38,804 bases of DNA, from IMG/VR virus record IMGVR_UViG_3300032288_001158, positions 1 through 38,804 of that record; one strand, 5' to 3'. Position 1 is the stretch's first letter; every line of letters starts with the position of its first letter. Of the stretch, positions 3,235-28,461 are shown in pieces. A program made the position numbers and the translations under genes. The stretch comes from a virus. The notes beneath the pieces are model-generated. The model was not told the DNA's origin. It saw only the letters and a list, made by a program, of their open reading frames with translations, and ran no database searches.

Positions 3235-5387
3235 TGTGGCGGCATCCCTTCAGGTGGCATCATTTCAGGTGGAGGCATCATGGGTTGCTCAGGCGGCGGC
3301 ATCATGGGCTCTTCGCCCATTCCACCACGGTCTTGCGGCATCTCAGCAATCAAGTCACCAGACGTAATCATTGAGTGCACAGTGCCCATGACGATGTCTT
3401 GAATCTGCTCAGGCGACATAGACGCTTGTACGGCTGACAAGCGCTTAGTTTCAGCGTCGTAAGCCTTAATCAAGGCTTCAAACTCCTTACGATCTAAATC
3501 CTGCATTTCCATAGACTTAGACACGTTCTGAAGCATGGTGTGCATTTGCTCCATTTCCTGAGCCATGCCCTGCATCTGCTGTTCAGCCGCTTGCAACGCT
3601 GGGTCCTTGTCGCCGTCTTCCATAAGCTTCGGATCAATCGTCTTGGCAAAGCGTTTGGCCATCTCTTGAGCACCAGGCCAATCCATGTTCTTGATAAACA
3701 AGTCGCCAGCCACTGCCCAAAGCTGTGGGTTGCCCTGCAACAGTTGAGCCATAGCTTCCAAAGCTTCTTGACGCTTAGTCATGTAGCTCGGTCCGGTCGT
3801 AACCATCACGTCGTACTTACCAACGCCTGGGTTATAAATTTTCTCTATCACGATACCGGCTTGGTCAACAATTTTCTTGACCGGCTCTTGCTGCATTGGG
3901 TTGATCTTGACGGTGTTTACCTCACCATCCTCACCAATGATGCGCGCGATGCGCTCAGTGTCGTAAATCTTGGGGATCAGGTCCACAATCTGACGCGTAA
4001 TGTAGCGCACAGCGCGGGCGTAGTTATCAACATAGTGATACGTGCCGCGGTCTGACTGACGCTCGCGAGCCAAGATGGCTTTACCCGAACGCTCATTAGA
4101 CACCTGACCTAAACTCGAGTCATATTGACCGGTTGTAGCCTTAATGTCGTCAGAGGCGCCCATTTTGGCCTGTATAAGCCCCGTTTGAGCCATCGGAGGT
4201 AGCGCACGCTGTGGCAGTGGCAGCGGCCCGCCTTGACCGTCTGTGACGTCTGGATTGACCTCTAAATACGGCCAATTGGTCGTGTTAGCGGTCTTCCATT
4301 GCTGCTCATAGCCTTCAAACTGACCACCATACCCGATAAACGGTGCTTTTGGCGCCAAGGCAAGCATTTCAGCTTCTTGGCTGACCCAATAGTTGTACAT
4401 ACGCTGTGCATCTTTAGCGTTACGCACGATGCCCGACAGGTATAAACGCCCGTCGATCTCAAATTCGTTACCAATGACGCGCACAACCGGTATCCAAGAG
4501 CCCGCCCAATCTTGCTCTTCAAGCACCTCAAAACCGTTGATTTTGCACCATTTGACCTTCTTTATGTCCACCATGCGCGAGCGAATCGGCTTCATGCCTC
4601 GCATAGCCATCTCGGCGTCTTGTGCCGAGCCCGCAAACGCTGTGACGTTGCCGTAATACAGGTTTAGCGTGGCTTTTTCGTGCTTGATGTAGAAGTATTC
4701 CGCGATGCGGACCGTGTCTTCGTTGATCCACGCGGAGAGCGATTGGTCACCGACACCTTGCTGCTGGAGCGAGGAGTGCGGGAGCGCGTCGGGGAACTGC
4801 CGCTCGTACTCTTCTTTGGTGATGTCTTCGCAGATGAAGCACCAGTTCGCGTCCGCACCGCAGGGGTCTTGGATGGTGGGGTCCATGTAAACAGAGAACG
4901 AATTGCGGATACGACCGATCTTAATATCTTGGTTAAACGTGTCATCATCGCAATACTCCGTCAGCAGTCGGATGTAGCCTTCGCCATAAGCGACTTGGTT
5001 TTCACACGCGGTGTCGTACGCAACATCAGCGTCTGACAGGTATTCGATATGGCGCACCATACCGTTGAAAATTTCCGCTACTTCAACGTCTGCCTTGTCA
5101 TCCACGGGGATAACTTTACCGCTTGGGCGGTTTTGGCGTTGATCGTTGGTGATTTCACGTACGTGCTGTGGCAGCTTGTTGATTGTCAAGCAAGGACGTG
5201 CGTTAATCGTCTGCCCTTGGACCGCGCCGCGCGTTTGCAACACGTCGGCTGGCCACTGATATTGGTTGTCCGGACTTGCGGCAAAGAATCGTAGGTCGTC
5301 TAGCTCGTCTTCTCTAGATTCACTAAATGCCGCAATAGCCATCTTTAGGCGGTTGCGGGCGGTCGAGAGAAGATCGTCGTTTTTCAT
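3231..5387 (-). CDS. P22-type portal protein
   Basis: A 718-residue portal protein, close in length to P22 gp1 (725). Twelve copies would form the ring at the head vertex through which DNA is packaged and ejected and to which the short tail attaches. Recognisable parts are the N-terminal helical segment with RPCLTINKLPQHVREITNDQ, then NRPSGKVIPVDDKADVEVAE, the clip/stem region with AYGEGYIRLLTEY, and a helical, Met/Gln-rich C-terminal barrel-like stretch (QAAEQQMQGMAQEMEQMHTM). The last ~40 residues are a Pro/Met/Glu-rich low-complexity tail. The gene follows terL and the GroES homologue and overlaps both neighbours by a few bases. Confidence 0.92.
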   Translation of the reverse strand: MKNDDLLSTARNRLKMAIAAFSESREDELDDLRFFAASPDNQYQWPADVLQTRGAVQGQTINARPCLTINKLPQHVREITNDQRQNRPSGKVIPVDDKADVEVAEIFNGMVRHIEYLSDADVAYDTACENQVAYGEGYIRLLTEYCDDDTFNQDIKIGRIRNSFSVYMDPTIQDPCGADANWCFICEDITKEEYERQFPDALPHSSLQQQGVGDQSLSAWINEDTVRIAEYFYIKHEKATLNLYYGNVTAFAGSAQDAEMAMRGMKPIRSRMVDIKKVKWCKINGFEVLEEQDWAGSWIPVVRVIGNEFEIDGRLYLSGIVRNAKDAQRMYNYWVSQEAEMLALAPKAPFIGYGGQFEGYEQQWKTANTTNWPYLEVNPDVTDGQGGPLPLPQRALPPMAQTGLIQAKMGASDDIKATTGQYDSSLGQVSNERSGKAILARERQSDRGTYHYVDNYARAVRYITRQIVDLIPKIYDTERIARIIGEDGEVNTVKINPMQQEPVKKIVDQAGIVIEKIYNPGVGKYDVMVTTGPSYMTKRQEALEAMAQLLQGNPQLWAVAGDLFIKNMDWPGAQEMAKRFAKTIDPKLMEDGDKDPALQAAEQQMQGMAQEMEQMHTMLQNVSKSMEMQDLDRKEFEALIKAYDAETKRLSAVQASMSPEQIQDIVMGTVHSMITSGDLIAEMPQDRGGMGEEPMMPPPEQPMMPPPEMMPPEGMPPQ

Positions 5388-5629
5388 ACTAGCCCTATGA
5401 CATCTTTGTCTTTCATGACTATGCAGTCTTCGTAAGTCTGGTCAATCGTGCCGCTATACATGACGTGGTCGCCAACCTTAACCAATAGTGGTCGGTTGGA
5501 GCCTTTTTTGCCTGGGCCCACGGCCATAACGGTGCCGGTACGCATGTCTTCTTCAGGCAAAATTAACAGCCCGCTCTGAATAAACGGGTCGGGTTTGACT
5601 ACGATATTGTCGTTTAATGGTCTGATCAT
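5384..5629 (-). CDS. Phage-encoded GroES-like co-chaperonin
   Basis: An 81-residue Cpn10 homologue, shorter than bacterial GroES (about 97). It shows the beta-barrel opening MIRPLNDNIVVKPD, a short mobile loop FIQSGLLILPEEDM with the hydrophobic SGLLILP segment that docks on GroEL, the core TGTVMAVGPGKKG, and VKVGDHVMYS. The C-terminal strand is CIVMKDKDVIGLV. It would cap host GroEL, plausibly to help coat protein or other late proteins fold, as T4 gp31 does. It sits between a basic miniprotein (ATGA overlap) and the portal (4-base overlap), inside the late operon. No companion GroEL gene is present. Confidence 0.85.
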   Translation of the reverse strand: MIRPLNDNIVVKPDPFIQSGLLILPEEDMRTGTVMAVGPGKKGSNRPLLVKVGDHVMYSGTIDQTYEDCIVMKDKDVIGLV

Positions 5630-5895: not shown

Positions 5896-7419
5896 TTAAG
5901 CCCCCATCCATGAAGTTAGTACTCCGCTTGCAGAATAACCCCTGCGTGGGGTCTTGTCAACAGTTTCTCGATGCGCCATCGGGAAGGCAAACGTGACACA
6001 TATTGCGTCTGCCGCATCAGGCGACGCAAGCCCTCTCGATCTCATGTCTTTTTTGCTTTCTAAGAAGATCGTGCCCTTGGAATCAGGCTTCATCATGGGC
6101 GAAATCAGGTCGCTTTTAAGCATTCTGTCTGATGGGATGGACGCAGACTTCAACCATTCACGCATCGCGCCCCACATCTCAGCGCGTTTGTTGCCGTACA
6201 TGAGCGGGTTCTTAGACTTATTGCCAAAATTCACGCCCCGAACCTTATAGCGCTGTTCTTTTAGCCGGTCCACGACCCCACCACCCACACCGCCCTCGTC
6301 AATTACGACCATAGCAGGGCTGTATTCCTCAATTGCATCAATAATATGGCCGACCACCGTCATCGTATCGTCGCCCCGATAACGCTTAATGTCCACAATG
6401 TCGCGCCCTTGCCTGACCGCAATGACGGTCGCGTCCGCCCCGAACCGTGCGGGGTCTACGCCTAGCACAATGGGGGCTGACTGATCCTTATAGCGGGGGC
6501 GTTTCATGGCATCATCCACCGTTTGCGCCGAAATGAACTGATCATCGCTCGCATTCGGGAACTCACCATAGACTTCTACGTGCGCTTGTGACGAATCCGG
6601 CCCATATTCGTCAATAATCTGCTGATAGACCTGCTTGTCCGTACCCTCGACCGTGCGGGCGTCCACGACTTGCGTGCGCCAAAACTCACGCTTGGCGTGA
6701 AAGCACTCGTAGAAGTAGCCGCTGTTGCGCCGCGGGTTAGAAAACGCCAACCAAAAACGGTTTGGCGTGTTCTCGGTAAAGAATCCAGAGGTCACCGCCC
6801 AGATGGCGTCATCAATACCCGAGGCTTCGTCAAAAATCACCATCACGCCGTCGTAGTTGTGCACACCGGCGTACGCGTCTGGATTCTCGCTTGACCACAG
6901 CCGACCCTCCACCGACCAATAACGCGTGCCTTTCTTGAGGTCCCGCTCGACCAACTCGGTCAACCACTTAGCCGGCATAAGCCGCGTGGCGCTCACTTCA
7001 AACCAATGGCTGTTAATCGCCATCGCAAGCCATTTAGTAATCTCAGCCCAAGTGACGCTTCTGAGCTGAGACTCGCTGTTGGCCGATATGATGGTCGTTG
7101 ACCCGATCCTAGTGGACAGCATCCAGATCGTAATCCAACTTACAAGCGCTGACTTACCAATACCACGACCCGAGCTTACCGCTTGGCGCAGTGTGTCGTA
7201 GTCTAGTTTGCCCTTGTTTTGCGCGATGTGTTCGCCGATCTGCGTGAGCACCTCACGCTGCCATTTGCGCGGTCCTTTGAAGTGCTCCAGAGGCGTACCC
7301 TTGACGCCCCACGGAAATACCAACGCAACAAACGCTAATGGATTATCTCTGATCGCGGGCGACCATAGCCTCGCCATTAACTCTTGTTCGTCCTGCGCTG
7401 AGTATATTGTCGTCTGCAA
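5896..7419 (-). CDS. terL: Terminase large subunit (TerL)
   Basis: A packaging motor ATPase and nuclease of 507 residues. The Walker A-like motif is SGRGIGKS (residues 83-90) and Walker B with the catalytic Glu is VMVIFDEAS (about 192-200). An RNase H-like nuclease domain follows with Asp322 (LGVDPARFGADATVI), Asp374 (VVIDEGGVGGG) and the SPDAADA motif near 468-471, so both activities appear intact. The longest frame starts at a TTG (7419) overlapping terS by 77 bp. An internal ATG at 7377 (ELMARLW) follows a weak AAGAG element and is an alternative start. The gene order terS-terL-portal supports the call. Confidence 0.95.
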   Translation of the reverse strand: MQTTIYSAQDEQELMARLWSPAIRDNPLAFVALVFPWGVKGTPLEHFKGPRKWQREVLTQIGEHIAQNKGKLDYDTLRQAVSSGRGIGKSALVSWITIWMLSTRIGSTTIISANSESQLRSVTWAEITKWLAMAINSHWFEVSATRLMPAKWLTELVERDLKKGTRYWSVEGRLWSSENPDAYAGVHNYDGVMVIFDEASGIDDAIWAVTSGFFTENTPNRFWLAFSNPRRNSGYFYECFHAKREFWRTQVVDARTVEGTDKQVYQQIIDEYGPDSSQAHVEVYGEFPNASDDQFISAQTVDDAMKRPRYKDQSAPIVLGVDPARFGADATVIAVRQGRDIVDIKRYRGDDTMTVVGHIIDAIEEYSPAMVVIDEGGVGGGVVDRLKEQRYKVRGVNFGNKSKNPLMYGNKRAEMWGAMREWLKSASIPSDRMLKSDLISPMMKPDSKGTIFLESKKDMRSRGLASPDAADAICVTFAFPMAHRETVDKTPRRGYSASGVLTSWMGA

Positions 7420-7822
7420 TTGAATCGTCCCGTAAGTGCGCGATGTCTATGACTCTTTTCTCGCCTTGTTCAAGCGCGGCGATGACGCTGATGCGCTGCT
7501 CAACATCTACATTGATTTGCTGTTTGGCAACCCAATCGTGTTTGTGCTTTAGAATCTCAAGCGCCGCCTTGGCGTCGCCGTTGCGTGCGGCCTCATGCAA
7601 CACCATCGACATCTCAAGCTCACCATCCGCTTTACCTTTAACCGCCGCGTGCTCGGCCACCGGATCAAGCTGACACAATGCGCGGAACTCTGCGGGCAGC
7701 ATGCCAGCGGCGAGCGCCAACGTGTCGCCCGAGAGTCCTAACTTAGCGGCGTCGTAGATCGCCTTTAAGCGCGACTCTGTGGCTTTGACTTGTCGGATCG
7801 AGAGCGGGAAGGATTCGAACAT
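7343..7822 (-). CDS. terS: Terminase small subunit (TerS)
   Basis: A 159-residue protein with a predicted N-terminal helix-turn-helix region (ATESRLKAIYDAAKLGLSGD, then TLALAAGMLPAEFRALC). A helical oligomerisation region follows (GELEMSMVLHEAARNGDAKA, then ALEILKHKHDWVAKQQ). This is the usual build of small terminases, which bind pac/cos DNA and recruit TerL. It is the first gene of the late operon and overlaps terL. No Shine-Dalgarno sequence is visible before its ATG. A TATACT element ends 7 bp upstream of the start codon, so the mRNA may be nearly leaderless. Confidence 0.85.
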   Translation of the reverse strand: MFESFPLSIRQVKATESRLKAIYDAAKLGLSGDTLALAAGMLPAEFRALCQLDPVAEHAAVKGKADGELEMSMVLHEAARNGDAKAALEILKHKHDWVAKQQINVDVEQRISVIAALEQGEKRVIDIAHLRDDSIADDNILSAGRTRVNGEAMVARDQR

Positions 7823-7829
7823 GGCTATT

Positions 7830-7835
7830 AGTATA
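7830..7835 (-). promoter_or_regulatory. Possible -10 element of the late promoter
   Basis: On the minus strand the sequence TATATACTAATAGCC leads directly into the terS ATG, and TATACT lies at 7835-7830. A -10 here would place the transcript start almost at the start codon. No good -35 is seen 16-18 bp upstream, where the sequence is a T-rich tract. An activator or another promoter deeper in the control region may therefore be used. Confidence 0.35.
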
Positions 7836-7963
7836 TATTAAAAATAAAAAAAATTGTTTGCAGACGCTGCGTAGACAAGGACCTGCCGGCCAGGGCCCTA
7901 CCCCCCCATCAAGGATTTTTTAGCAGATTGCTTGCAGCCCTGGGCTAACGATTGCTTAGTGTT

Positions 7964-8038
7964 GCTGCACTGCACAATGCTGCGTTGCACAATGCTGCGC
8001 TGCAAAATGATGCAATGCACAATGCTGCGTTGCAACAT
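7964..8038. repeat. Five 15-bp tandem repeats (iteron-like)
   Basis: Five consecutive units follow the consensus GCTGCGTTGCACAAT at 7964-7978, 7979-7993, 7994-8008, 8009-8023 and 8024-8038. Each differs from the consensus by at most four bases. The unit contains TGCA-type half sites. Directly after it come 9-bp units TAGTCGTTT, TAGTCATTT and TAGCCATGC (8038-8064). Tandem units of this size in a phage control region are typical of initiator or regulator binding sites. Confidence 0.8.
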
Positions 8039-8092
8039 AGTCGTTTTAGTCATTTTAGCCATGCCGAAAAACCGGCCGCCAAACCATGCAAT

Positions 8093-8155
8093 AGTCATGT
8101 TTAGTTAAAGTTAATCTGAGGGATAGGGCTCAGAATTCCTTTAACTAAAATGACT
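8093..8155. repeat. Long imperfect palindrome
   Basis: The left arm, AGTCAT-G-TTTAGTTAAAG (8093-8110), pairs with the right arm, CTTTAACTAAA-ATGACT (8139-8155), giving 17 pairs with one bulged G. Inside it a second stem, TCTGAG (8115-8120) with CTCAGA (8129-8134), flanks the loop GGATAGGG. It could form a cruciform or RNA hairpin and carries ATAGTCAT-type boxes at both feet. No U-tract follows on either strand, so it does not look like a terminator. Confidence 0.75.
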
Positions 8156-8214
8156 TAGAACCTAAGACTTAGTGAGGGAATTCCCTGCAAATAATACTTG
8201 CCAAAAAGGAAAGA

Positions 8215-8403
8215 GATAGTCATCTAAGCGATATAGTCATGCCGGAAAAATTGACGCCAAAACCGCGTGCGCTCTCCTATCCTATAAACTACTGTATATC
8301 CATACAGTACAAAATTAATTTTTTGTTTTTTCTTTCAAATGATGACTATATGACTTAGACCCTTGCAAATAGTGGGTCTCCGATCGCTTAGACGATGACT
8401 ATC
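8215..8403. repeat. Inverted pair of ATAGTCAT-type elements
   Basis: The element GATAGTCATCTAAGCGAT (8215-8232) recurs inverted as ATCGCTTAG-ACG-ATGACTATC (8383-8403), with three extra bases between its halves. Further ATAGTCAT boxes occur at 8091-8098 and 8233-8240, and inverted copies at 8342-8349 and within 8395-8402. The LexA-type box lies between the two arms. The arrangement suggests sites for a phage or host regulator or replication initiator. Confidence 0.65.
8290..8309. promoter_or_regulatory. LexA (SOS) box
   Basis: TACTGTATATCCATACAGTA is a perfect 8-bp inverted repeat with a 4-bp spacer and contains CTGT-N8-ACAG. It differs from the classical enterobacterial LexA consensus TACTGTATATATATACAGTA at only two central positions. 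On the minus strand it fills the 18-bp spacer between TTGTAC (8312-8307) and TTTATA (8288-8283), a plausible weak promoter pointing toward terS. Binding of host LexA is established for such sequences in beta/gammaproteobacteria; use here is inferred. Confidence 0.75.
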
Positions 8404-8452
8404 GCGCGCTTATCCATAGCATAGCCGCAAACTATTGTTTTACAGTTTGTGA

Positions 8453-8471
8453 TGTAAAAATATCATTTACA
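8453..8471. promoter_or_regulatory. Upstream operator TGTAAA-N7-TTTACA
   Basis: A perfect 6-bp inverted repeat with a 7-bp spacer. It has the same architecture and spacing as the operator at 8496-8514, 43 bp downstream centre to centre, or about four helical turns. A further everted pair, TTTTACA...TGTAAAA, overlaps its left side (about 8438-8459). It probably binds the same dimeric regulator as its twin. Confidence 0.6.
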
Positions 8472-8487
8472 AAACAGCTTAAAACCG

Positions 8488-8516
8488 TTGCAAAGTGTAA
8501 ATTATTTGTTTACACT
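8488..8516 (+). promoter_or_regulatory. Early promoter with overlapping operator
   Basis: The -35-like TTGCAA (8488-8493) and -10-like TACACT (8511-8516) are separated by 17 bp. The spacer and -10 are filled by the perfect inverted repeat AGTGTAAA-N7-TTTACACT (8494-8516), so a bound dimer would block RNA polymerase. The expected transcript start is about 8523, some 36 bases before the first gene of the early cluster, which has a GGAG ribosome binding site. The regulator is not identified. Confidence 0.6.
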
Positions 8517-8558
8517 GATCGCGCAGTACAAGACAAACGAACCAAACGGAGCAACAAA

Positions 8559-8813
8559 ATGCGATTCAACACTAATAGAAGTTATGACAAAAACGGTCAA
8601 ATTATTGACGCTACGCAATTAAGCGATGGCCGCGTTCACTTTGTTGATTTGTCGCGCTGCATCGATGGCGTGCTGCGCTGCGCGTTCAACGAACGCGATA
8701 TTTTGCGCGCTTACGATACTGGCGATTATTACGATAACTATATTGACGTTAACGAACAAATCGCGCTCGGCGCCGCCGCTCGCGCGTTGCATAACGAATA
8801 TAACCAAAATTAA
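8559..8813 (+). CDS. Hypothetical early protein
   Basis: An 84-residue protein starting MRFNTNRSYDKNGQIIDATQ, rich in Asp, Tyr and Asn, with two Cys (SRCIDGVLRCAF). No domain recognised. A GGAG site lies 9 bp upstream of the ATG, and the gene is the first after the operator-controlled promoter. First genes of early phage operons often encode host-takeover or regulatory proteins. Nothing in the sequence identifies it as a DNA-binding repressor, as no helix-turn-helix is evident. Confidence 0.7.
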   Translation: MRFNTNRSYDKNGQIIDATQLSDGRVHFVDLSRCIDGVLRCAFNERDILRAYDTGDYYDNYIDVNEQIALGAAARALHNEYNQN

Positions 8814-8821
8814 ACCTAATC

Positions 8822-8837
8822 GGCCGCGCAAGCGGCC
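8822..8837 (+). ncRNA. GCAA-tetraloop hairpin upstream of RBS, copy 1
   Basis: GGCCGC-GCAA-GCGGCC forms a perfect 6-bp GC stem closed by a GNRA tetraloop. It is followed 7 bp later by GGAGCT and then the ATG of a 28-residue membrane peptide. No U-tract follows, so it is unlikely to be a terminator. It may stabilise or process the mRNA, or be bound by a protein. The same cassette recurs at 8950-8965. Confidence 0.6.
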
Positions 8838-8854
8838 ACACTTTGGAGCTCAAA

Positions 8855-8941
8855 ATGACATTTGAAAACATCATAGGCGCGATACTTTTTTCAGGCCTTG
8901 CGATCATTCTAATTAACCTAGTTTCAATCGTTCGCTGGTAA
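8855..8941 (+). CDS. 28-residue single-helix membrane peptide
   Basis: Encodes MTFENIIGAILFSGLAIILI followed by NLVSIVRW. Most of the peptide is one hydrophobic helix of about 20 residues, with a positively charged C-terminus. A strong TTTGGAGCTCAAA leader precedes the ATG. It lies in the 8559-11090 early cluster and is preceded by a GCAA-tetraloop hairpin. It could be a small inner-membrane modulator, for example of superinfection or a host channel; there is no homology evidence. Confidence 0.55.
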   Translation: MTFENIIGAILFSGLAIILINLVSIVRW

Positions 8942-8949
8942 TCACAACA

Positions 8950-8965
8950 GGCCGCGCAAGCGGCC
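8950..8965 (+). ncRNA. GCAA-tetraloop hairpin upstream of RBS, copy 2
   Basis: An identical 16-base hairpin GGCCGC-GCAA-GCGGCC, again followed by a CA-rich spacer and TTGGAGCT, before the ATG of the next miniprotein at 8985. The duplicated hairpin plus ribosome binding site suggests that the cassette was copied together with its small membrane gene. Confidence 0.6.
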
Positions 8966-8984
8966 ACAATTTGGAGCTACTACT

Positions 8985-9080
8985 ATGTCACGCAAATTTT
9001 TAAACGTTTTCTGTTTTGTTTTCATTACCGCTGAAATCCTGTTTTTCGTTGATTGGTTTGTCACTGAATTAGCACGTTAA
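8985..9080 (+). CDS. 31-residue single-helix membrane peptide
   Basis: Encodes MSRKFLNVFCFVFITAEILF followed by FVDWFVTELAR. It has a basic N-terminus, a strongly hydrophobic aromatic helix over about residues 5-24, and a short charged tail, consistent with a single-pass inner-membrane peptide. A GGAG site lies 8 bp upstream of the ATG, behind hairpin copy 2. No family recognised. The similar size and identical leader suggest a functional pair with the preceding miniprotein. Confidence 0.55.
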   Translation: MSRKFLNVFCFVFITAEILFFVDWFVTELAR

Positions 9081-9102
9081 TCTAAACTAAGGTAATCTTA
9101 CT

Positions 9103-9822
9103 ATGACTAAGTACTCTTGTGTTAATCAATACCAAGTCCATCTCACGCCTAAAAGCACTAACGCCAAAACGGGTCCAATCCCCGTTAGCACCACGTCGCG
9201 CAAAACGTGTCCCGACGTGTGTCCGTTTAAAAAGGCCGGCTGTTATGCTGAAAATTACGGCCTGAATTTTCTCTGGAACCGCGTAGACAATGGCACGGCC
9301 GGCACCGATTGGCCTACGTTTTGCCATGCTATTGAAGCGCTTCCGCCTGGCACGTTATGGCGTTACGGCCAGGCCGGCGACTTACCAAACCAGGCCGGCC
9401 ATATTGACGGCGAAGCGCTTGGGCACCTAGTACAAGCCAATATGGGTAAGCGCGTTATCGCGTACACCCATTGCGAGCCCACGCTAGGCGACAATGCGAA
9501 ATATATTAAGGGCTGCAACGATTGGGGTTTTACCGTCAATTTGAGCGCTAACACGCTTGAGCACGCCGACACGCTCGCGGATCTCGAGATCGGGCCTGTA
9601 GTGGTGGTGCTAGATTCTACTCAAACCGAAAACACGACGACGCCGGCCGGCCGACGTGTGGTTATTTGCCCGGCCACTATCCGCGACGACGTGACGTGCA
9701 AAACGTGCGGTTTATGCGCTATTGAAGACCGTAAGGCCGTTATCGGTTTTCCCGCGCATGGTACAGGTACAAAAAAAGCGGAAGCGGCCATTAAATTTTA
9801 TCGGAGCAATACAAAATGCTAA
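9103..9822 (+). CDS. Cysteine-rich putative metalloprotein (DUF7227-like)
   Basis: A 239-residue protein of a conserved phage family that I recall as DUF7227. The N-terminal signature TTSRKTCPDVCPFKKAGCYA has Cys36, Cys40 and Cys47 (C-X3-C-X6-C). The C-terminal block has Cys189, Cys199, Cys202 and Cys205 (C-X9-C-X2-C-X2-C). Between them are alternating strand-like segments (GTLWRYGQAGDLP, RVIAYTHCEPTL, GFTVNLSANTL, GPVVVVLDS, RRVVICPATI), suggesting an alpha/beta barrel. The seven cysteines could hold iron-sulfur clusters or zinc, and the layout recalls the phage Gp37/Gp68 radical-SAM-like group without the canonical C-X3-C-X2-C. Enzymatic activity is unproven. It is the largest gene of the early cluster. 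Confidence 0.7.
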   Translation: MTKYSCVNQYQVHLTPKSTNAKTGPIPVSTTSRKTCPDVCPFKKAGCYAENYGLNFLWNRVDNGTAGTDWPTFCHAIEALPPGTLWRYGQAGDLPNQAGHIDGEALGHLVQANMGKRVIAYTHCEPTLGDNAKYIKGCNDWGFTVNLSANTLEHADTLADLEIGPVVVVLDSTQTENTTTPAGRRVVICPATIRDDVTCKTCGLCAIEDRKAVIGFPAHGTGTKKAEAAIKFYRSNTKC

Positions 9823-10028
9823 ACACAATAGACTTTTATTTTGATATTGGCAAAAAAGTGGCCACGGCCCGCAACGAGCGCGACGAAGCGCGCGCGGTTT
9901 TCGAGATGGATTATCTTAGGCGCGCGCTAGGGTGTGAAAAGCGCGAGGACCGGCCCGCGGCCCGCGCGGCATATGATGCCGGGTTTAAAGAGTACCGTAA
10001 TGTGCCACAAGTGGAGTATTTCAAATGA
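9816..10028 (+). CDS. Hypothetical helical protein
   Basis: A 70-residue, mostly charged alpha-helical protein (MLNTIDFYFDIGKKVATARN, then ERDEARAVFEMDYLRRALG), possibly a short coiled coil. Its ATG overlaps the end of the metalloprotein gene by 7 bp behind a CGGAG site, and its end overlaps the next start by 4 bp. It belongs to the tightly packed early operon. No family recognised. Confidence 0.65.
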   Translation: MLNTIDFYFDIGKKVATARNERDEARAVFEMDYLRRALGCEKREDRPAARAAYDAGFKEYRNVPQVEYFK

Positions 10029-10249
10029 GAATAAACGCAAAATACGCCGGCGTATGCTCGGCCACTGGCCGGCCGTTTAGCGCCGGTGATTTAATTGATT
10101 ACAACAAGGCCACAAAAAAGGCCGTTTTGATAGCGCAAAACCGATCGGAGAGCATAACGCTATTTGACGGCGACAAGGCCAGTACGTTTTATCGTAATGC
10201 GCGCGGCCGTTGTGAGGACGCGCCATGCTGTGGTTGTTGCACTATTTAA
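10025..10249 (+). CDS. Small zinc-ribbon-like protein
   Basis: A 74-residue protein starting MRINAKYAGVCSATGRPFSA. The pattern KYAGxCxxTGRxFxAGDxIxY resembles a short zinc-ribbon/beta module seen in phage and actinobacterial small proteins. The C-terminus is unusually cysteine-rich (RCEDAPCCGCCTI), which could supply the remaining metal ligands. It overlaps the preceding gene by 4 bp. Metal binding is an inference from cysteine spacing; function unknown. Confidence 0.65.
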   Translation: MRINAKYAGVCSATGRPFSAGDLIDYNKATKKAVLIAQNRSESITLFDGDKASTFYRNARGRCEDAPCCGCCTI

Positions 10250-10259
10250 GGGGCTCAAA

Positions 10260-10550
10260 ATGAATACTTCAGAGATAAAACAATCCATTGCATACCGCCA
10301 AGGCCGACGCGACGCGCTGCAGAAAAAGCCTTTTATGTATGCATTTGGCGCGGTTACGCGTGACGCGTATTTGGAAGGGTACCAGTCAGTTAACACAAAC
10401 CCGCCACCAGAAAGCGATATAGCGGCCATTATGCGCGCGTTGCGCGTAATTGATGAGTATCGCCTATCGCAAGGCCTAGACGACGACAGCGACGCCTACC
10501 ATGCGTTAATCAGCAAAATTGAATTACAACTATTGGAGCTCACAAAATGA
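10260..10550 (+). CDS. Hypothetical early protein
   Basis: A 96-residue protein beginning MNTSEIKQSIAYRQGRRDAL. The start at 10260 is chosen because AAGGGG lies 7 bp upstream and it follows the preceding stop; a longer frame from 10164 would overlap the previous gene by 86 bp. The N-terminal half (AYRQGRRDALQKKPFMYAFG) and the YLEGYQ motif resemble small phage proteins of Rmf/CrpP-like type, in which short R.GR.A and Y..GY motifs occur. This is only a pattern resemblance. The C-terminal half is helical. It overlaps the next gene by 4 bp. Confidence 0.65.
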   Translation: MNTSEIKQSIAYRQGRRDALQKKPFMYAFGAVTRDAYLEGYQSVNTNPPPESDIAAIMRALRVIDEYRLSQGLDDDSDAYHALISKIELQLLELTK

Positions 10551-10819
10551 CTCAATTCTATATTTCCGATAGTCAATTTGACGGCCTAGATAGCGACGCG
10601 CCGAGCCAAGATTTAATTATTGAAGCTTTGCAGGATGTTATTGCAAACTTAGATTCTGAGGGCGTCTGGTGCTGTAAAGGCAATTATCAATTGCATTTTT
10701 GGACCGACGGCGAAGGGGCAATATTTTGTAATGCTTTTATCCTGTCAAATCCGGACGATCCGAACGACTCAACCACAGAAAATTATTCCTATTATTTTGA
10801 AATCAAGGGGGCAAAATGA
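10547..10819 (+). CDS. Hypothetical acidic protein
   Basis: A 90-residue, strongly acidic protein (MTQFYISDSQFDGLDSDAPS, with GVWCCKGNYQLHFWTDGEGA further on) and a beta-rich centre. Acidity is common among phage DNA-mimic and anti-restriction proteins, but no specific family is evident. A TTGGAGCTC site precedes the ATG, and the gene overlaps both neighbours by 4 bp. Confidence 0.65.
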   Translation: MTQFYISDSQFDGLDSDAPSQDLIIEALQDVIANLDSEGVWCCKGNYQLHFWTDGEGAIFCNAFILSNPDDPNDSTTENYSYYFEIKGAK

Positions 10820-11031
10820 TTAAATACACTAATGGCCGGCCGGTAGAGCATGGCGACGTTGTGCACGTCAAAAACCGCGCCTATACCGTTGACTCATACG
10901 ACCAGAAAAGCGGGTACGTCTACGCGCGCTCAATGGATGAAAGCGGGACCCTGCGCCCGCTATACCCGCGCGATATCGGCGCCTATTGGGATAACGTGCA
11001 CCCCCTATTTAAGGGGTTGCTACCGTTATGA
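10816..11031 (+). CDS. Hypothetical small beta-rich protein
   Basis: A 71-residue protein starting MIKYTNGRPVEHGDVVHVKN. The arrangement NGxPVxxGDVVHVKxRxYTVDSY looks like a small SH3-like or KOW-like beta barrel that may bind nucleic acid or protein. AAGGGGGC lies just upstream. It ends by overlapping the start of a 20-residue membrane peptide. No specific function can be assigned. Confidence 0.65.
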   Translation: MIKYTNGRPVEHGDVVHVKNRAYTVDSYDQKSGYVYARSMDESGTLRPLYPRDIGAYWDNVHPLFKGLLPL

Positions 11032-11090
11032 CGTATTCACTAATCGCGGCCGCAATAGTCATTTTAATGATTCTGACTTTCGACCTGTAA
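11028..11090 (+). CDS. 20-residue membrane peptide
   Basis: Encodes MTYSLIAAAIVILMILTFDL and then stops. It is almost entirely one hydrophobic helix and starts in ATGA overlap with the preceding stop codon. It ends exactly where the convergent primase-helicase gene ends (11091). It is the third miniature membrane peptide in this cluster. Translation is plausible from the coupling but cannot be proved from sequence alone. Confidence 0.4.
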   Translation: MTYSLIAAAIVILMILTFDL

Positions 11091-15961: not shown

Positions 15962-16102
15962 TTACTCTTCTGTCTTCGGAAGCTGTGGGATAGCTTGTTC
16001 GCGAATCTTAGCGATCAGGCCTTCGACCTGCTCATAAGGTTGGCGCCCAAGTATTCCAATGATGGCGTTCGCTTCTTCAATCGTAAAGGTAAGCGTAATC
16101 AT
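15962..16102 (-). CDS. 46-residue conserved phage protein
   Basis: Encodes MITLTFTIEEANAIIGILGR followed by QPYEQVEGLIAKIREQAIPQ and LPKTEE. It is a short beta strand followed by two helices. The pattern LTxTIEEANxIIxxLGxxPYEQV is one I associate with small proteins beside phage replication genes. Its ATG overlaps the stop of the upstream 213-residue gene (ATGA). Function unknown. Confidence 0.7.
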   Translation of the reverse strand: MITLTFTIEEANAIIGILGRQPYEQVEGLIAKIREQAIPQLPKTEE

Positions 16103-16740
16103 GCTGCACCTCTACGACGACGTGCGGGGGCTGCGGGTTCCTCGGCTTGCGCCTCTGGTTCTGCGGCTTCCCCATCCATGCCGACCCACTCGACAATCTC
16201 AAAGACTGGCGTGTAGATGCGACCATAACTCTTGTGCTGATAGTGTTCCTTTTTGAGCAACACAACAGGCACAGGCTTGCTTTGATCGACTTCGACTTGG
16301 TTTGCGATGGCGACTGCCAACGCTTGCACCGCACGCTTACCACCGACTGACGTCACGGTATAGCGCGCCTCCATCCCTTCATCTTCGCCGGAAATGCACT
16401 TAAGTGACATACCGACTTGTGTTTCCCAGCCACGCTTGGCACCAGGGGGCGGCGCGTCGAGCTCAGGTAACGGCTCAGACACCGATACCATCTTCTCGCC
16501 TAGCACCTCACCCTCGCCCCACGCGATAAAGCCGTGAACGAATGAGAAAGGATTGATCGCCCAACGGGCGTCGTCTTCAGCTTCGGTTTGGTCTGCACCA
16601 AAAACCCAATGGCCGGTCTTGTCCATCTTAATGATGACAGAGCCGACTGCGCCCACGTCTTGCTCAAGCGCGCGAAGCGACTGAGAGAGTGTTTGCACTG
16701 AAGGGAGGTTTGCGGATTTAAAAGTTGCAATATTAGACAT
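16099..16740 (-). CDS. Conserved phage replication-module protein, possible ssDNA-binding role
   Basis: A 213-residue protein beginning MSNIATFKSANLPSVQTLSQ. It has a long beta-rich centre (GAVGSVIIKMDKTGHWVFGA; WAINPFSFVHGFIAWGEGEV; GWETQVGMSLKCISGEDEGM) and a disordered C-terminus of acidic Ala/Pro/Glu repeats ending in RRRRGAA. It sits directly between a DUF2800-type nuclease and polA. In many phages that slot holds an ssDNA-binding or recombination partner. That role is inference from context, as I do not see a clear OB-fold motif. The start follows an AAGGTGA-like site. Confidence 0.65.
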   Translation of the reverse strand: MSNIATFKSANLPSVQTLSQSLRALEQDVGAVGSVIIKMDKTGHWVFGADQTEAEDDARWAINPFSFVHGFIAWGEGEVLGEKMVSVSEPLPELDAPPPGAKRGWETQVGMSLKCISGEDEGMEARYTVTSVGGKRAVQALAVAIANQVEVDQSKPVPVVLLKKEHYQHKSYGRIYTPVFEIVEWVGMDGEAAEPEAQAEEPAAPARRRRGAA

Positions 16741-20138: not shown

Positions 20139-20418
20139 CCACACAGCAATTCAAGAAACAGACGAAATGAAAGCACAATGGGCTAAGCACATTAAACAAG
20201 GAGCAAGCATGACTGACATCATCGCCCTACTTGAACAAGCCTGTGGCGGACGCTGCAACGCTGAGAACAACCCCTGCGAATACAAAGAAGCCGCGTTGGA
20301 GTTGGAAGGGCTAAAGCCCGTCGCTTGGCGCAAGAAAGTGAGCGGCGTCTGGCATTACTTTGACGAATCAACCCCTTTCCCTTTTGACGATTGTGAGCCC
20401 TTATATGAAAAGAATTGA
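20131..20418 (+). CDS. Hypothetical phage protein with Cys motif
   Basis: A 95-residue protein starting MTDHTAIQETDEMKAQWAKH. The start at 20131 has GGAG 9 bp upstream. A second internal ATG at 20210, also behind AGGAG, would give a 69-residue form (MTDIIALLEQACGG). The C-terminal part has CGGRCNAENNPCEYKEAALE and VAWRKKVSGVWHYFDE. The latter resembles the KPVAWR...YF segment of small phage proteins that carry Ea8.5/DUF551-like tails. The dual start is visible in sequence; its use is not proven. Confidence 0.6.
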   Translation: MTDHTAIQETDEMKAQWAKHIKQGASMTDIIALLEQACGGRCNAENNPCEYKEAALELEGLKPVAWRKKVSGVWHYFDESTPFPFDDCEPLYEKN

Positions 20419-20566
20419 CCTGTACAAAGCCAAACTGAAAGCCGCAAAGGTTGAACTAACCATCCGGCAGCGTCAGGCGAACGCTGTCCAGCGCGCGCTA
20501 TTCAACGTAACCAACCGCATTAACGACTTGGAGCAAAAAATTGAAAACCTGGCGCAGCCTAAATAA
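20405..20566 (+). CDS. Small coiled-coil protein
   Basis: A 53-residue protein (MKRIDLYKAKLKAAKVELTI, then RQRQANAVQRALFNVTNRIN, then DLEQKIENLAQPK) predicted to be one long amphipathic helix or coiled coil. The ATG overlaps the preceding gene by 14 bp, and its 3' end overlaps the next gene by 26 bp. No specific family assigned. Confidence 0.6.
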   Translation: MKRIDLYKAKLKAAKVELTIRQRQANAVQRALFNVTNRINDLEQKIENLAQPK

Positions 20567-20729
20567 CGAACTGCATAGCTTAAGCGAGCGCGACGTCTTA
20601 GAGCTACTGAACGAAGAGCGTGCAAACGCACGGCGCGCGTCTATACTAAAGCGATTGCACCAGCGCTACACCATGCTGCGTGCGGACCGCGAACGCATTG
20701 AGATTATGAAAGAGGCACGACATCCATGA
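20541..20729 (+). CDS. Small helical phage protein (TTG start)
   Basis: A 62-residue helical protein, MKTWRSLNNELHSLSERDVL, then ELLNEERANARRASILKRLH and QRYTMLRADRERIEIMKEA. The TTG start at 20541 is supported by GGAG 7 bp upstream. The pattern W.SLN.ELHSL...VL.LL..E and ILKRLHQRYTMLR.LRER is one I recognise from small proteins in phage early operons. Role unknown; its basic helices may bind nucleic acid. Confidence 0.7.
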   Translation: MKTWRSLNNELHSLSERDVLELLNEERANARRASILKRLHQRYTMLRADRERIEIMKEARHP

Positions 20730-27981: not shown

Positions 27982-28461
27982 TTAATTCTCCGTTAAAACT
28001 AGCCTAGCACTATTGTTTGCTAACGCCAATCTTTTATCTAACAAACCACACTCAGGGATGACATAAAGTCGTTCTTCAATCTCATCTATATCTGTGCAGC
28101 CATCGGGGTTGTCGTAAATATCAACCCATACAAGTTCGTCATCGCCAACCAATCCAACTCGCCTTGCACCTGCTGGCGCATCAAATTCCATAGGCGCAGT
28201 CAAAGTATGAATTTCGTTACCTAAGTTTACCGAAATTGTACCCTTTTCAAGTTTGATTTTATAGGGTATTTTGTGTTCCGCGCCTACAATAACTGTGTGG
28301 GGCGGTGCGATCATTTTGCGGATGTACTTGCCGTCTTCAAACGAATGAATGGTTTTGATGTCTGCTTGCGGCATTTTTAAAAGTTCGTCTTGCAGCAAAT
28401 CTATTTTGTGCTGAAGCGTTGGCTTGGCTAATATGCCGCTATAAGACACGGTTATATTCAT
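27982..28461 (-). CDS. Cupin-like structural protein
   Basis: A 159-residue protein with an N-terminal helix (KPTLQHKIDLLQDELLKMPQ), then a beta-rich cupin-like run: KYIRKMIAPPHTVIVGAEHK, KGTISVNLGNEIHTLTAPME, FDAPAGARRVGLVGDDELVW. His and Glu residues sit where cupins bind metal, but binding is not shown. A conserved acidic C-terminus follows. Such proteins often sit between fibre and ejection genes in short-tailed phages. It overlaps the upstream gene by 4 bp. Confidence 0.65.
   Translation of the reverse strand: MNITVSYSGILAKPTLQHKIDLLQDELLKMPQADIKTIHSFEDGKYIRKMIAPPHTVIVGAEHKIPYKIKLEKGTISVNLGNEIHTLTAPMEFDAPAGARRVGLVGDDELVWVDIYDNPDGCTDIDEIEERLYVIPECGLLDKRLALANNSARLVLTEN

Follow-up and report, generated by a model that had tools for sequence, protein, structure and literature searches.

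A conserved palindrome at the early promoter of a family of P22-like phages, probably the operator of a candidate repressive dimeric regulator

Two perfect copies of the inverted repeat TGTAAA-N7-TTTACA stand in front of the early genes of a virus in which no repressor gene had been recognised, and the locus therefore raises the question of what these palindromes are for and which protein, if any, would bind them. The window analysed here, i.e., the whole stretch of 38,804 bases, is the IMG/VR record IMGVR_UViG_3300032288_001158, a whole virus record classed as linear. Its virion genes are P22-like (portal, major head protein, head-closure protein, DNA-ejection protein and endolysin), and its replication block encodes a VirE-like primase, a family A DNA polymerase, an exonuclease, an SNF2-type helicase and a nuclease. 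Neither an integrase nor a repressor came to light in the window proteins scanned, and judged from its sequence the phage appears to be P22-like and lytic. Among named records, the closest are MW202483 (terminase 78% and primase 51% identical) and phage DSL-LC05 (terminase 69%), for which its authors predicted a virulent lifestyle; the control region itself has no DNA similarity to named phages. Since related contigs were found in bins labelled Rhodoferax, Burkholderiales, Methylococcaceae and others, among which binning errors are possible, the host is probably a freshwater proteobacterium. A GroES co-chaperonin homologue (5384-5629), also annotated in DSL-LC05 and present in a few relatives, adjoins the portal gene.

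Twin palindromes in a divergent control region

The palindromes lie between two divergent gene blocks. The predicted small terminase subunit gene (7343-7822, minus strand), assigned by homology to the small-terminase gene of the relatives and placed before terL, is the first gene of the leftward late block, while the early operon (8559-11031, plus strand) consists of small variable genes and the gene of a DUF7227 protein (9103-9822). Operator O1 (8453-8471) reads TGTAAAAATATCATTTACA and operator O2 (8496-8514) reads TGTAAATTATTTGTTTACA; their coordinates, 6-7-6 geometry and centre spacing of 43 bp are exactly those given in the preliminary description of this DNA, and they are the sole perfect copies in the record, with symmetrised motif scores of 17.6 and 19.1, respectively. 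A pair sharing a 6-base half-site and a spacer occurred in none of 2000 dinucleotide shuffles of 7823-8558, nor did the twin pair arise in 40 shuffles of the full window; hence, the pair is beyond chance. A degenerate third copy, O3 (8426-8444; CGCAAACTATTGTTTTACA; motif score 15.7), is kept in the two closest relatives, L003 and L004, as CGCAAACTATTGCTTTACA and CGCAAACTATTGGTTTACA. The everted pair TTTACA-N8-TGTAAA, which had been described as a third pair overlapping the first, is better read as the junction of O1 and the degenerate O3.

O2, the family-conserved copy, overlaps the early promoter TTGCAA-17-TACACT (8488-8516, plus strand), and the -10 hexamer is formed by its right half. The earlier statement that this palindrome covers the spacer and the -10 holds, with most of the spacer and the -10 being covered. 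L003 possesses identical hexamers at the equivalent position, L029 and L034 have TTGCAG/TTGCAT-17-TACACT, and G003 has TTGCAA-17-TACATT. The -35 of the window and its near relatives is TTGCAA, TTGCAG or TTGCAT. A second promoter-like pair, TTTACA-16-TATCAT (8439-8466, plus strand), has its hexamers within O3 and O1, and on its own it scores at chance level.

We consider it rather probable that the palindromes represent a 19-bp operator, TGYAARNNAWTCNYTTACA, of a P22-like phage family, at which a homodimeric regulator blocks the early promoter through the overlapped -10, with the extra copies acting cooperatively. A homodimer would bind the copies of this sequence; bound at O2 it would block RNA polymerase, because the right half-site is the -10 hexamer, and would thereby shut down the early operon, while the upstream copies would add cooperativity. 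Protein binding, repression and a role in early shut-off are what we infer from the arrangement.

Conservation and placement of the element in relatives

Relatives were gathered as contigs encoding relatives of the DUF7227 protein, the primase, and the small and large terminase, from which 134 non-redundant regions preceding the small terminase gene were extracted. TGTAAA-N7-TTTACA with at most one mismatch was present in 51 of these 134 regions, whereas with any other spacer length between 0 and 15 the two half-sites paired in at most 5; the search for the 6-7-6 motif in relatives, which the preliminary description had proposed, thus returned a family-wide signal at spacer 7. An exact 18-base search for TGTAAAAGAATCNTTTACA across 2.9 million viral contigs gave 34 stretches, 27 of which belong to this phage family, nearly all sited at the early promoter, and the remaining 7 to unrelated contigs. 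The element persists where primases are only 54-64% identical to that of the window. An exact search of the viral contigs for the double palindrome gave no match because the copy spacing varies between relatives (20, 21, 23, 27, 31-32, 38, 43, 45-46 and more); the 43-bp spacing is no family constant. In a separate observation, the unrelated viral contig L218 carries at 8533-8551, upstream of an ORF, an extended palindrome, GGGAGTTGTAAAAGAATCCTTTACAACTCCC, perfect except for its central base.

The element generalises to 19 bp, often in tandem copies, and the aligned sites read TGYAARNNAWTCNYTTACANT. A motif matrix trained from a small seed and refined on the regions counted recovered 90 distinct sites above 9 bits, a count that is partly circular because the same regions served for refinement; in 134 shuffled regions the best score was 10.7 and the median -2. 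Positions 1-5 carry about 1-2 bits of information, positions 9-11 carry 0.9-1.8 and positions 15-19 carry 1.1-2.1, against roughly 0.0-0.5 bits in the upstream flank including the -35. Conservation is therefore symmetric about the central AWT, as expected for a dimer, and exceeds that of the -35 and the flanks; covariation between symmetric positions did not go beyond chance, except for a weak signal at 6/14.

These profiles bear on an alternative in which there would be no regulator at all, only a strong conserved sigma70 promoter whose hexamers are palindromic by happenstance. It is true that the right half shares bases with the -10 (TACANT), as does, in many relatives, a tandem copy 20 bp upstream with the -35 (TTGACA). 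However, sigma70 asks little of the promoter spacer, and the left half-site lies within it; therefore, promoter function does not account for the left half, which together with the AWT centre is about as conserved as the -10. Conservation thus goes beyond the promoter's own requirement, further copies are found away from the main promoter, and 7 is the only spacer length that gives a peak; we regard the promoter-only explanation as very unlikely.

The placement of the copies varies among relatives, palindromic sites overlapping core promoter hexamers being the recurrent arrangement. In the largest group, TTGACA is followed by 1-2 bases and then by the palindrome, whose end starts the -10 (TTGACAgTGTAAAAGAATCTTTTACAAT), and several relatives possess a second, weaker copy exactly 20 bp upstream, the right half of which is the -35 TTGACA. 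In L110, G012 and G015, and at two early promoters of MW202483, the site lies over the -35 only; one clade has two copies 38 bp apart, both upstream of the promoter; and in G003 the early-promoter copy is joined by a second one 108 bp ahead of the terminase gene. Copies over the -10 and -35 favour repression, while other positions would also allow activation. The textbook repression layout claimed for the locus can thus be upheld in part: operators within the early promoter and a symmetric, dimer-like conservation in diverged relatives speak for it, but some sites over the -35 or upstream would suit an activator as well. Collectively, the element is probably a conserved operator of a candidate dimeric regulator with a repressive role.

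With an early block on one side and a divergent late block on the other, the sites might also serve an early-to-late switch of the phi29 p4 type, in which the protein represses the early promoter and helps the divergent leftward late promoter. G003 and G011 have a copy close upstream of the terminase gene, and a copy lies over the -35 in some relatives, as phi29 p4 sites 1 and 3 do (PMC3100819). In most relatives, however, the vicinity of the terminase gene holds no copy, a p4-like protein was not found, and the universal 62-aa protein considered below matches no known DNA-binding fold, which makes such a switch rather unlikely.

Neighbouring elements and candidate binders

Other elements share the control region with the operators. 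Eight iteron-like ATGACT/AGTCAT boxes (8048-8400) occur in the stretch that separates the terminase gene from the operators, compared with 0.2 expected and a maximum of 2 in 500 shuffles. Short-box arrays of GACCCAGTGGGTC, TGACCCA or TTGTCA also occur in the intergenic regions of relatives (L277 3600-4100; L009 and L080, upstream; L246 1-900), the GACCCAGTGGGTC arrays being those of DSL-LC05, and it is possible that these arrays and the ATGACT boxes are origin iterons whose sequence differs among relatives. A tandem repeat of about 17 bases (tgctgcgttgcacaatg; 7960-8030) adjoins the terminase gene, and MW202483.1 carries a ATGTAAAC repeat array (28200-28420) upstream of its early genes. Given the box arrays of the window and DSL-LC05 and the adjoining terminase gene, the palindrome could be thought to belong to an origin of replication or a packaging site and not to be a transcriptional operator, all the more so as it accompanies the replication genes of G003 and G016, both of which have none of the family's structural genes. 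Yet the palindrome is positioned by the promoter and not by the boxes, and G016 carries it without a terminase homologue; hence, an origin or packaging role seems highly improbable.

A LexA/SOS-type box, TACTGTATATCCATACAGTA (8290-8309), lies upstream of the operators. The E. coli-type LexA consensus is CTGT-N8-ACAG, at its best CTGTATATATATACAG, and the box conforms to it. With at most one mismatch, such boxes were found in the regions of 31 of the 134 relatives and in no shuffled region, most often 182-204 bp before the operator; L003, L005, L006, L008, L034, L207, G003 and others combine them with a divergent control region and no recognised repressor. This suggests a DNA-damage input into the operator region, and an SOS-type box in lytic-looking phages raises the question of DNA-damage sensing.

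The early region of DSL-LC05 contains no TGTAAA element; a different palindrome, TGACCCAGTGGGTTA, lies in the spacer of the early promoter and is repeated upstream (L277 3560-3640), and because this phage has its own palindrome in place of the TGTAAA element, the control region seems to be modular, with a replaceable operator class. A small protein of DSL-LC05 (L277 1245-1556) bears the annotation repressor C, and the early operon of MW202483 contains a gene annotated 'dnaa protein helix-turn-helix'.

Which protein would bind the operator? The preliminary description recognised no repressor gene, and neither the scan of the small proteins nor co-occurrence has revealed one; its further suggestion, that a small gene of 8559-11090 encodes the binder, did not survive comparison with relatives. 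The genes at 8559-8813, 9816-10028 and 10547-10819 have no relative in the 18 genomes compared, and the others of 8559-11031 are present in one to four of them, making this operon the least conserved part of these phage genomes. No recognised DNA-binding domain was found by Pfam in its proteins, nor in 81 early-operon proteins from 11 other operator-bearing relatives, and no HTH or similar domain was recognised in the window's scanned small proteins. Variable and devoid of a recognised DNA-binding domain, the early genes are thus excluded as a source of the shared binder. The DUF7227 protein is also common to otherwise unrelated virus records of about 80 kb from isolates (L012, L013 and L015).

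None of the window genes is both confined to operator-bearing genomes and present in all of them. Those found in 14 of 14 operator-bearing genomes encode the primase, polymerase, exonuclease, helicase, a VRR-type nuclease, the 16099-16740 protein and a 62-aa protein. The AlphaFold model of the 16099-16740 protein has weak matches to single-stranded-DNA-binding proteins, and for this reason it is unlikely to be the operator binder. Two small conserved proteins, one of 68 aa (coiled-coil-like) and the 62-aa protein with an invariant RLHQR, are encoded side by side in the helicase operon (20360-20729). The 62-aa protein (20541-20729, plus strand) is present in all 19 genomes compared, including operator-negative ones; its confident model (pLDDT 89) has three helices, with no PDB match below E 2 and no match to a known DNA-binding fold, and in the viral library it matches uncharacterised phage proteins only. 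As an HTH repressor it is disfavoured, since the three-helix model is unmatched in the PDB and the protein occurs in operator-negative genomes too, but it may still be regarded as a phage candidate for the binder, albeit one with no recognisable DNA-binding fold.

Against the operator reading itself stand the lack of a binder among the window's small proteins, the lack of a gene that tracks the operator, and the variable copy spacing. The putative regulator would be either a core phage protein with no recognisable DNA-binding domain or a host protein, and is more likely one of these two than an early-operon product.

A host-encoded transcription factor, through which host physiology would set early transcription, agrees with the absence of a candidate regulator in the phage and in the 81 early proteins of relatives and of any gene that co-occurs only with the operator, and the LexA-type box nearby hints that host regulators may be at work in this region. 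We searched 150 genomes of the order of a Rhodoferax bin that contains such phages and 274 of its class, from which the true host may differ. The palindrome occurred in 41 of the 150 genomes (at most 8 copies per genome) and a stricter form in 50 of the 274 (at most 3), and 14 of 20 inspected copies lay inside long open frames. A host regulon, i.e., many intergenic copies, was not seen in these ~420 Burkholderiales/Gammaproteobacteria genomes, a set outside which the true host may lie. Such results speak against a host factor, which we consider possible though somewhat unlikely; it could be one with very few sites, or one that resides in another host. A bolder version, in which a widespread freshwater phage family with no repressor of its own would have its early genes run through two conserved operators for host proteins, by LexA at the SOS box and a second host regulator at TGYAA-N9-TTRCA, appears quite unlikely to us, but if it were true, infection would depend directly on host state. 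With the obvious suspects removed, the shortlist of regulators comprises the core replication proteins, the 62-aa protein and a host factor.

Relation to known systems

In lambdoid-type control regions, tandem operators provide multiple dimer sites over the -35 and -10 of divergent promoters. The window resembles them in its multiple dimer-like sites overlapping the early promoter hexamers, but differs in having no repressor gene beside the operators and no integrase found in the window.

The TyrR box, TGTAAA-N6-TTTACA, which requires G-N14-C (PMC4374768), has identical half-sites; nevertheless, the spacer here is 7 and not 6, with G-N15-C instead of G-N14-C, and the N6 version is absent from all 134 relatives. 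The spacer and G-N15-C thus rule out TyrR as the binder.

Phage GIL01 has no dedicated repressor but LexA boxes in its promoters and is under LexA-gp7 control (PMC6182141). The window likewise has a LexA-type box upstream of its early promoter, but the TGTAAA palindrome is no LexA box, and the present family looks lytic from sequence.

In the virulent phage phi29, several inverted repeats of the p4/p6 region (promoters A2c, A2b and A3) are imperfect, stand between early and late promoters that diverge, and in part overlap a core hexamer, and the window is alike in this; the phi29 p4 sites, however, follow the pattern CTTTTT-15 bp-AAAATG, and both p4 and p6 are known proteins of the phage (PMC3100819). 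The window site differs from CTTTTT-N15-AAAATG, and we found neither a p4-like protein nor any p4/p6 homologue or equivalent.

The layout is known in kind. Literature searches returned no description of a TGTAAA-N7-TTTACA phage motif, and as far as our searches show, the element and its orphan status are new; what began as a curiosity of a single genome is probably a family-wide regulatory element of largely uncultured freshwater phages.
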